DNA of 64,000 nt from Diaphorobacter caeni (lineage in GTDB: Bacteria; Pseudomonadota; Gammaproteobacteria; Burkholderiales; Burkholderiaceae_C): positions 186,001 to 250,000 of the forward strand of contig NZ_JADKYZ010000005.1 of NCBI RefSeq assembly GCF_015354245.1, in the 5' to 3' direction. Under the pieces are notes generated by a model that saw nothing but the letters and a program-made list of their open reading frames with translations, was not told where the DNA came from and searched no databases. Positions 2,862-31,308 of the stretch are shown here, piece after piece (position 1 is the first letter of the stretch; the number at the start of each line of letters is the position of its first letter). The position numbers and the translations under genes are program-made.

Positions 2862-3767
2862 TTATGCCTTTTTTGCTGGCACGGTCGGGCATCCCCAGTC
2901 GGCCCAGAGCTTGGCTACGGCGGCATAGTCATCGCGGCCGTGGCCTGCGGCCACGCCCATGTCGTAGACGCTGTGCGAGCCCTGAATGGCGAACAGCGGC
3001 ACGCCCAGCGTCTGCGCGAGTTGCAGGGCGAGGACGGAGTCCTTGCGGGCGGCGTCCAGCGGCATGCCGCCTGCGTAGTCGCCGTTGACGATGCGGTCGG
3101 CGTAGCGGTAGGTGAGCGGGCGGTGCAGGCCCATCTGTGCATCGGAGAGCAGGGTGATGAGCTTCTGGCAATCCACGCCCGAGGCGGTGGCCATGGCGCC
3201 GGCTTCGGCCACCACGACCATCACGGCGTGGGCGACGGCGTTGTTGATCACCTTGGCTGCGGCACCTGCGCCGAGTGCGCCGAAGTAGACCTGCTTGGTG
3301 GCGATGGCGTCGAGCACGCCCTGTGCGCGTGCAATCGCCTGCTCGTCACCGCCGAGCGCGAGCGAGGCCGAGCCCGCGACCATCTGGCCGACGCCGGCCA
3401 TGATGGAGGCGTCCACCACGTCGATGCCGAACGGTGCGAGCACCTTCTGTTCGGCGTGGATGTGCTCGGGGTTGACCGTGCTGGTCTCGAGCACCACGGC
3501 GCCGCGCGGCAGCTGCGGCGCGATCTGCGCGAGCACGGCCAGCGAGATGGTCGGGTTGGGCAGGCACAGCACGACGACGGTCGTGTTCTTCAGGTCTTCG
3601 GGCGAGGTGATCGCGACGCCGCCGAATTTTTCCTTGGCGCGGGCGAGCGCCGCGGCGTCGAGGTCAAACACCTGCGTGGCGAATTGGGCGCCCACGCGTT
3701 CGGCCAGTGGGAAGCCCATGTTGCCTAGGCCGTAGATGGCGACTGGGTTGTTGGTTGGTTGTGTCAT
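2862..3767 (-). CDS. 3-hydroxyisobutyrate dehydrogenase-like NAD(P) oxidoreductase
   Basis: A 301-residue member of the beta-hydroxyacid dehydrogenase family. The N-terminal Rossmann motif is IYGLGNMGFP (G13, G15, G18). The catalytic lysine is K172 in GAAAKVINN, and the C-terminal all-helical domain is complete. The usual substrate-binding motif DAPVSGG is replaced by DASIMAG-type sequence near 120-125, so the substrate is probably not hydroxyisobutyrate itself. It would oxidise a 3-hydroxyacid or reduce a semialdehyde in the cytoplasm. It lies between the ALDH and Bug genes on the same strand; a semialdehyde passed between this enzyme and the ALDH is a plausible link (inference). Repeat B copy 1 precedes it. 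Confidence 0.82.
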   Translation of the reverse strand: MTQPTNNPVAIYGLGNMGFPLAERVGAQFATQVFDLDAAALARAKEKFGGVAITSPEDLKNTTVVVLCLPNPTISLAVLAQIAPQLPRGAVVLETSTVNPEHIHAEQKVLAPFGIDVVDASIMAGVGQMVAGSASLALGGDEQAIARAQGVLDAIATKQVYFGALGAGAAAKVINNAVAHAVMVVVAEAGAMATASGVDCQKLITLLSDAQMGLHRPLTYRYADRIVNGDYAGGMPLDAARKDSVLALQLAQTLGVPLFAIQGSHSVYDMGVAAGHGRDDYAAVAKLWADWGCPTVPAKKA

Positions 3768-3821: not shown

Positions 3822-4006
3822 GTGAGGGCGGAGGCCGGGACTGCCCCCGGCGGGGCAATCACTTTTTGGTCTTGCTCAAAAAGTAATCAAAAATGCGCCT
3901 TGAAGTCATCCGGCGGAACTCGCTGCGTTCCTTCGTCACTCCGCTCGGGCAACCGCCGGAAGTCAGTTTTGAAAAGGTGTGTTCGGCACTTCGCTTCGCT
4001 CGTGCC
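3822..4006 (+). repeat. Repeat family B, copy 1 (four-hairpin element)
   Basis: About 185 bp with four successive inverted repeats: TGCCCC-cggc-GGGGCA; ACTTTTTG/CAAAAAGT; CCGGCGG/CCGCCGG enclosing about 37 nt; GGCAC/GTGCC. Other copies are at 10893-11077, 24381-24497 and 31119-31303, all in the same orientation. This copy lies between the ALDH stop and the start of the next gene on the minus strand. Confidence 0.85.
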
Positions 4007-4018
4007 TACTGCTCGTGC

Positions 4019-10872: not shown

Positions 10873-10892
10873 TTTTTGTGCCTGCTGGAGTG

Positions 10893-11077
10893 GTGAGGGC
10901 GGAGGCCGGGACTGCCCCCGGCGGGGCAATCACTTTTTGCTTGCGCGCAAAAAGTAATCAAAACCGCGCTTTGAAGTCCTCCGGCGGAACTCGCTGCGCG
11001 ACTGCGTCGCTCCGCTCGGACAACCGCCGGAAATCAGTTTTGAAGAGGTGTTGGCGGCACGTCGCTGCGCTCGTGCC
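10893..11077 (+). repeat. Repeat family B, copy 2 (best preserved)
   Basis: The full four-hairpin element, with ACTTTTTGC-ttgcgc-GCAAAAAGT as second hairpin and an extra GCGAC-tgc-GTCGC hairpin inside the third. It lies between convergent genes. Four bases beyond the last arm, TCAGGTCGC (11082-11090) encodes the final Ala-Thr-stop of the acyl-CoA ligase; the same nine bases follow copy 3. Confidence 0.88.
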
Positions 11078-11081
11078 GGGG

Positions 11082-24380: not shown

Positions 24381-24497
24381 GAGGACAGAGGCCGGATTGC
24401 TCCGGCGGGAGCATTCACTTTTTGCTTGGGGTGCAAAAAAGGAATCAAAACGCGCTTTGAAGTCCTGCGACGAAATTCAACTTCGCGCTTGCGTGGC
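24381..24497 (+). repeat. Repeat family B, copy 4 (decayed)
   Basis: It retains hairpin 1 as TGCTCC-ggcg-GGAGCA and hairpin 2 as TTTTTGC-ttggggt-GCAAAAA, then loses hairpins 3 and 4 after CGCGCTTTGAAGTCCTGCGACG. The DNA to its right (24498-24716) is AT-richer and I see no gene in it. Confidence 0.7.
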
Positions 24498-24716
24498 TCT
24501 CGTAGGGTGTCCTACAGATTGCGTGCTGTGGTGTGGGACTGCGAAAGGCGCTGAACGACCCAATGTGGCAATGCCAATGGTGAAAATCCACTGCCCGAAA
24601 ATCGAATCATTCCGATGGTTTATGGAGACATTGAACCAAGGCTTCACGCGGAGATCACGCAAAGATGCACAGATCAATCTTTTTCAAATCCCCATTTTGT
24701 CAGTCGGTAAAATTTT

Positions 24717-31118: not shown

Positions 31119-31303
31119 GGAGGGTGGAGGCCGGGAGTTCCGCCCGGCGGCGGAGTCACCTTTTGCTTGCGCGCAAAAGGTAACCCAAAACGCGCTTTCA
31201 ATACCTCCGGCGGAACTCGCTGCGTTCCTTCGTCACTTCGCTCGGACAACCGCCGGAAGTCAGATGGGAAGAGGGGCGGTCGGCACTTCGCTGCGCTCGT
31301 GCC
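31119..31303 (+). repeat. Repeat family B, copy 3
   Basis: The four-hairpin element with changed arms: hairpin 1 is TCCGCC-cggc-GGCGGA and hairpin 2 is ACCTTTTGC-ttgcgc-GCAAAAGGT. Both keep pairing relative to copies 1 and 2. It lies between convergent genes. TCAGGTCGC at 31309-31317, five bases after the last arm, encodes the final Ala-Thr-stop of the molybdoenzyme. Confidence 0.86.
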
Positions 31304-31308
31304 TGTTT

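Follow-up and report, generated by a model that had tools for sequence, protein, structure and literature searches.

The REP/BIME sequences with their RAYT are abundant, intergenic and palindromic, lie near gene 3' ends and pair in inverted orientation. The element analyzed here resembles them as an abundant intergenic palindrome that forms inverted pairs (47 among 83 sites in its own genome) and lies near gene 3' ends, but its unit is an arm of ~185 nt with several hairpins rather than a single short hairpin, the Y1 gene of its genome is not flanked by arms, and its surroundings carry a strand-specific substitution footprint. Intrinsic terminators likewise place a GC-rich hairpin and then a T tract at gene ends, but here a spacer precedes the T tract, the hairpin belongs to a four-hairpin arm, and the arm takes either orientation in tandem contexts. 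R0, R2 and similar repeats in Pseudomonas fluorescens are intergenic, in several cases built with inverted repeats, and biased toward tail-repeat-tail positions between convergent genes (PMC2718517). The present element shares these traits and differs in lineage, a comparison made by description only. BRE, a Betaproteobacterial repeat of ~90 bp, is presented in the available portion of its report as mostly intergenic, often arranged in variable tandem arrays, suspected to be mobile and most numerous in Polaromonas sp. JS666 (PMC3110155). It too is Betaproteobacterial, repeated and mostly intergenic, and Polaromonas sp. JS666 also carries the core hairpin of the present element, but its length and frequent tandem arrays set BRE apart, by description rather than by sequence. 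These two repeats came nearest in searches of open-access literature, which listed no description of the present element or of such a footprint.

The window, a stretch of 64,000 nucleotides of the Diaphorobacter caeni genome (G000; 5.99 Mb in 34 contigs), contains four copies. We interpret the element as a non-autonomous DNA repeat built of hairpins, akin to REP, MITE and foldback elements and of long standing in Burkholderiales, whose arms may be polar sites of a strand-specific DNA transaction; we give this reading a probability of about 0.42. It builds on observed arm anatomy, pairing geometry, covariation, retention of sites, replacement of arms and modules, and a footprint of 300-400 nt lying mainly on the 5' side of arms. 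The cost and mode of action of common intergenic repeats are mostly unknown; here, a measurable strand-specific trace lies in neighboring coding sequence in several genera.

Arm anatomy, copy number and distribution

The repeat unit is an arm of ~185 nt with four hairpins (H1 to H4), the third of which is the core; in its own genome, it occurs alone or as an inverted pair around a centre of ~150 nt. Copies 1, 2 and 4 of the window are solo arms. The four plus-strand copies reported in the first-pass annotation were all recovered by nhmmer (E of 9.1e-21 or better), and the features are as follows.

3306..3765, plus strand: 5' flank of copy 1 (60-520 nt off), within the minus-strand gene 2862-3767 near its start; carries a substitution footprint relative to an element-free genus-mate
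3826..4007, plus strand: copy 1, a solo arm between two minus-strand genes, antisense to both, each with a Pfam match (nhmmer)
3842..3857, plus strand: copy 1 hairpin 1, identical in sequence to hairpin 1 of copy 2, then ATCACTTTTT
10873..10896, plus strand: T/G-rich leader from a stop codon to the arm of copy 2
10897..11081, plus strand: copy 2, a solo arm between two convergent genes, each with a Pfam match (nhmmer)
10913..10928, plus strand: copy 2 hairpin 1, TGCCCC CGGC GGGGCA, with TTTTT after 5 nt; terminator-like
10932..10955, plus strand: copy 2 hairpin 2, ACTTTTTGC/GCAAAAAGT (direct reading)
10977..11035, plus strand: copy 2 hairpin 3, the core, a covarying outer stem enclosing AACTC(G/A)CT ... 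CG(C/T)TC(A/G)GACA
11056..11077, plus strand: copy 2 hairpin 4, GGCAC ... GTGCC (direct reading)
24383..24499, plus strand: copy 3, a partial arm (H1, H2 and a degenerate H3) with a plus-strand gene with a Pfam match on one side and a minus-strand ORF without one on the other (nhmmer)
31122..31306, plus strand: copy 4, a solo arm; the genes flanking it converge, and both have Pfam matches (nhmmer)

Paired differences in hairpin 1 had also been reported. They are real, but two copies had been interchanged: copy 3 carries TGCTCC/GGAGCA and copy 4 TCCGCC/GGCGGA. Copy 4 is a mosaic in which an H3 of the TCCGGCGG type is joined to that H1 and to an H2 of ACCTTTTGC/GCAAAAGGT. The extent of ~185 nt first assigned to the whole element did not hold, since in 23 of the first 30 genomic copies the sequence continues through another arm, in inverted orientation, to form a composite of roughly 500-560 bp. 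The layout of these composites is a left arm, the centre of ~150 nt and an inverted, divergent right arm; of the remaining seven copies, two have a more divergent right arm and five are solo. At paired sites, the two inverted arms thus serve as long terminal inverted repeats, which solos lack.

A search with a covariance model of hairpin 3 (R1) returned at least 130 core matches at 83 sites in the own genome (E of 0.01 or better), well beyond what chance would give and a lower bound because 150 of 7331 candidates were scored. These sites comprise 36 solos and 47 inverted pairs with their 5' ends outward, every pair (47/47) being plus-minus with a spacing of 223-296 nt. In a DNA search of the same genome, 40 of 153 first-look candidates were scored, and every one of the 40 matched. 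Two loci (L020 and L028) join a usual left arm to a right arm of another family, GGCCGGGACTCGCCCCGGCGGGCGA ... CTTCTTTTGCTTCGCCAAAAGAAG, a type present in other genera too. A separate hairpin, CATCTCGCGAAGTCGCGAGATG, recurs in the composite centre (e.g., L004, L006 and L026), and a similar hairpin follows some solo arms in relatives.

Among named genomes, a pattern scan found at least 112 stretches with the core. Nearly all of the 80 matches listed came from Burkholderiales genera or from proteobacterial MAGs of loose classification, and a lone Bacteroidetes MAG was set aside; the core-bearing genera include Acidovorax, Variovorax, Rhodoferax, Polaromonas, Ramlibacter, Methylibium, Roseateles, Ottowia, Thiomonas and Corticibacter. 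Nine of these 80 hold two core matches, eight as inverted pairs and one (L165) as a direct pair, and G001, one of four genus-mates (G001 to G004), likewise has two solo arms in direct orientation. Some relatives retain H1, H2, H3, H4 and the inverted pair; others (e.g., L055, L063 and L186) have no recognizable H1 or H2 at the core, and 79 core matches lacked H1 by pattern expression. A class-wide search with the core model matched at least 6 of 274 genomes, the own genome included, and says little on absence because 19 candidates per genome were scored. Within the family, 16 of 150 genomes had a match to arm DNA, again counting the own genome. Carriage by plasmids or phages was rejected: an own-genome composite matched a single plasmid record, that of Diaphorobacter sp. 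HDW4B (77.6% over 39% of the query, two places; the plasmid holds a right arm 77.6% identical), and the longer relative L186 matched neither plasmids nor phages.

Placement beside gene ends and sites in related species

Three of the window copies had been placed between convergent genes. This stands for copies 2 and 4, with Pfam matches on both sides, but copy 3 faces a minus-strand ORF without a Pfam match, and copy 1 lies between two minus-strand genes. Across the genome, a crude ORF caller put 41 of the 83 sites between convergent, 35 between tandem and 7 between divergent genes; the 50 confidently called sites divide into 25, 22 and 3. Background gaps of at least 40 nt in one own-genome stretch (C30; n = 184) were convergent in 30 cases, tandem in 112 and divergent in 42. 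The element appears to be tolerated mainly beside gene 3' ends.

The likeliest rival has the arm acting in RNA at gene 3' ends: H1 and the T tract would form an intrinsic terminator, the later hairpins would block 3' exonucleases, and the inverted pair would serve both convergent genes in sense. The over-representation of convergent gaps (25/50 confident sites against 30/184 background gaps from the one stretch) is what this account would predict, as is the covariation of the core, but the arm of copy 2 folds no better than shuffled sequence. H1 with ATCACTTTTT of copies 1 and 2 tops the terminator-like list for the first 20 kb, although that list of 20 sites does not as a whole exceed shuffles (mean of 16.0, sd 3.8) and a 5 nt spacer ahead of the T run is unusual. 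Among arm-facing gene ends, a terminator-like site was present at 72 of 79 when H1 and H2 were counted and at 18 of 79 without them, compared to 8/52 and 6/103 in controls. Solo arms between tandem genes (n = 21) nevertheless have no preferred sense, with 12 antisense and 9 sense, and a terminator leaves unexplained a footprint that reaches 300-400 nt and appears in composition even where the neighboring gene is transcribed away from the arm. We regard this account as less likely than not; a role as a terminator or at 3' ends might, however, exist beside a DNA-level event.

Stretches of 400 kb from three species, G000, G003 and G004, were compared; nhmmer gave 14, 16 and 14 hits in the three stretches, one of them a fragment. 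Where both flanks were located, full-arm sites of G000 were occupied in G004 in 8/8 cases and in G003 in 4/6, sites of G004 were occupied in G000 in 9/10, and those of G003 were occupied in G000 in 5/7 and in G004 in 5/6. The site of the arm fragment is empty in G003. At retained sites, solo or paired form and hairpin types vary. Orthologous arms of G000 and G004 were barely more alike than non-orthologous ones (0.831 versus 0.800; p = 0.011, 10 pairs), and in comparisons with G003 the values were 0.755 and 0.757 (p = 0.61, 5 pairs). In the G003 stretch, 12 of 13 arms carry the H1 type TCGCCC/GGGCGA; the stretches of G004 and G000 have it in 3 of 16 and 0 of 12 arms, and the whole G000 genome in 9 of 125 distinct arms, among which modules are recombined. 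Sites are thus mostly kept between species, and arms are replaced module by module. Arm likeness, the distribution of H1 types and the reshuffling of modules suggest exchange between copies. Separately, the flank positions of two G000 copies (C30:307739 and 325629) relative to a stretch of G003 (C1, 40850-59802) fit an 18 kb inversion bounded by element copies.

An ordinary MITE, that is, a deletion derivative of an insertion sequence whose arms are its long inverted repeats and whose transposase was lost or acts in trans, would account for paired inverted arms, many copies and an intergenic bias. It predicts no footprint of the kind described below, however, and among the three 400 kb stretches there was neither a precise insertion nor a precise empty site. 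Some solo flanks inspected by eye had no obvious target duplication, several solo arms stop at the same GTGCC, and we consider such an origin improbable. Mobilization by a RAYT was rejected, as the own Y1 gene has no arms nearby. Y1_Tnp has one match in each of G000 to G004, that of G000 (L336, C12:491717-492004) lying beside a gene which we take to be gltB, and in ten Y1 loci neither the core hairpin (E up to 1) nor, at a significant level, the arm was matched.

A substitution footprint mainly on the 5' side of arms

Read on the strand entering the arm, G+T in the own genome climbs from about 0.46-0.51 to 0.69-0.76 beside the arm, and A drops there to 0.08-0.11. The rise begins 300-400 nt away and so lies largely within neighboring genes. 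G+T is enriched at 122 of 125 own-genome arms (p = 1.5e-21), comprising 88 of the 91 whose neighbor was called as transcribed toward the arm and all 34 others; the shift is alike in the two contexts (0.573 versus 0.474 toward, 0.600 versus 0.497 otherwise), and 9 of 10 tested neighbors called as transcribed away have Pfam matches. The footprint is therefore not confined to one direction of transcription. The same 5' gradient is present in G003, in G004 and in 40 arms of other genera, where enrichment per arm was found in 34 of the 37 with enough upstream DNA. Control gene ends in the C30 stretch (77 convergent and 164 other) had no such gradient, and control hairpins outside arms had no enrichment (155/344, 158/302 and 102/226). 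On the 3' side of solo arms, the plus strand of the arm itself is mildly G+T-rich (0.57-0.64 within 60 nt). The composition of the nearest ~60 nt on the 5' side might stem from selection for a U-rich leader.

Substitutions between occupied and empty sites lean the same way. On the strand that enters the arm, each change was scored in the direction of the occupied genome, with ancestral states unrooted; a site was called empty if no arm hit lay within 900 nt of the aligned flank, a class that includes one-flank and rearranged sites. In 20 comparisons of 5' sides, some with repeated sites, changes from A/C to G/T and the reverse numbered 58:12 at 15-100 nt and 189:33 at 100-200 nt, then 197:56, 180:135 (300-450 nt), 252:339 and 755:849. 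At 100-200 nt, the excess consisted of C>T (64 versus 5), C>G (67 versus 12) and A>G (55 versus 14). Eight comparisons of 3' sides, again on the entering strand, gave no excess (10:27, 25:26, 33:46, 50:75, 76:112 and 202:321); the plus strand of the arm leans the opposite way, most strongly near the arm (27:10 at 15-100 nt) but also far off (321:202). Ratios between two occupied 5' sides were 1.04-1.36. With one comparator for each of 12 site-sides, 10 of which had coding changes, coding changes at 60-300 nt stood at 206:54, those in third positions at 162:42 and those in far codons at 369:442; within 60-300 nt, 213 codon changes were synonymous and 55 non-synonymous. Eight of the 10 site-sides have an excess, one of them just 10:7, and two do not (5:5 and 2:9). 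The excess was seen with G003 occupied and with G000 or G004 occupied and so follows occupancy whichever genome is occupied, which disfavors a target preference for G+T-rich sites.

The strand-specific footprint points to a process at the DNA level. One route would be transcription-coupled mutation, in which transcripts entering the arm stall and expose a non-template strand that then mutates. Direct counts are higher where the neighbor is transcribed toward the arm (165:31 over 6 site-sides) than where it is transcribed away (41:23 over 4 site-sides: 20:4, 9:3, 10:7 and 2:9), so transcription may have some effect. As the source of the footprint it is disfavored, and we hold it to be very unlikely, given that the composition shift is equal in both contexts and that copy 1, whose neighbor has Pfam support and is transcribed away, yields 20:4.

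Under the preferred reading of the arm as a polar site, the arm would trigger a directional event, and the strand running 5' to 3' into it would be repeatedly exposed as single-stranded DNA. Such exposure may follow nicking or resection, for example, during recombination that would also homogenize arms by gene conversion, and repair of the exposed strand would be error-prone (C>T, C>G and A>G). Changes of these kinds, limited to a single strand and to a few hundred nucleotides, are reminiscent of damage to exposed single strands or of error-prone synthesis on them. According to a review, G:C to C:G changes in Caulobacter depend on imuB and imuC (PMC3901139). In the own genome, two matches are of the DNA polymerase III alpha type. 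The narrower proposal makes the arm a polar signal for recombination or nicking that resembles Chi in logic and not in sequence; its error-prone fill-in would leave C>T, C>G and A>G in the neighboring gene, and its events would also homogenize arms. This is rather unlikely, but were it true, many Burkholderiales would carry a built-in directional local mutator at gene borders. The Chi sequence of E. coli was not a convincing candidate, as GCTGGTGG occurs in 7 of 125 5' flanks (300 nt) and in 1 on the other strand. In the available part of a survey of Chi motifs, Betaproteobacterial candidates appear only in Paraburkholderia, as likely false positives (PMC8022716).

Several observations weigh against the polar-site reading. 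No precise insertion was found in the three 400 kb stretches, no obvious target duplication in the solo flanks inspected by eye and no partner enzyme of the Y1 family; a double-strand break would predict a footprint on both sides of a solo arm; and direct-repeat pairs exist in relatives (L165 and G001). The footprint would nevertheless matter in practice: it would bias estimates of substitution rate and codon usage for adjoining genes, and it would let the activity of the element be inferred from genome sequences and put to the test in mutation-accumulation lines.

Fold of the core hairpin

The first-pass annotation took compensatory changes between the four window copies to indicate selection on a folded form. 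H1 types are swapped between copies as whole blocks within one genome, so these copies represent few independent events, and the arm of copy 2 as RNA is no more stable than shuffles (z of -0.01). Conservation of a folded form beyond the four copies is supported, however, by an alignment of 121 core hairpins, 110 from the pattern scan and 11 from the own genome, genus-mates and family; the pattern used in the scan constrained part of the internal loop but left the outer stem free. In these, 90.1% of cells are paired versus 73.5% in shuffles, two-sided changes number 299 versus 86.4 in shuffles and 19-49 with partners slid, and the covariation score is 0.461 versus 0.169 in shuffles and at most 0.079 when slid. 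There was no excess in the number of core pairs with a two-sided change (10/14, 10.0 in shuffles) or in further pair types (28, 25.9 in shuffles). The claim that no named family matches was borne out in Rfam, where no family reached its cut-off for the window and 10 loci of other genomes; under permissive settings, 501 bases yielded a CRISPR-repeat match and a microRNA match, both far short of their cut-offs, and an Rfam identity was rejected.

Covariation produced by mutation alone, with template switching perfecting hairpins, might be expected of short hairpins whose whole modules are exchanged between copies, but it is highly improbable given that an asymmetric internal loop is kept in many genera while the surrounding stems change, both in the 121 sequences, picked by a pattern that fixes part of the loop, and in own-genome arms, which a similarity search had picked out without use of that pattern. 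Compensatory changes between copies of a repeat can thus stem from block exchange on top of conserved folding. One composite folds far better than shuffles as a long inverted repeat (z of -19.7). By eye, H2 in own-genome arms is a stem of A-T and G-C pairs followed by a single mismatch, A-C or C-A depending on the arm, with further pairs outside it.
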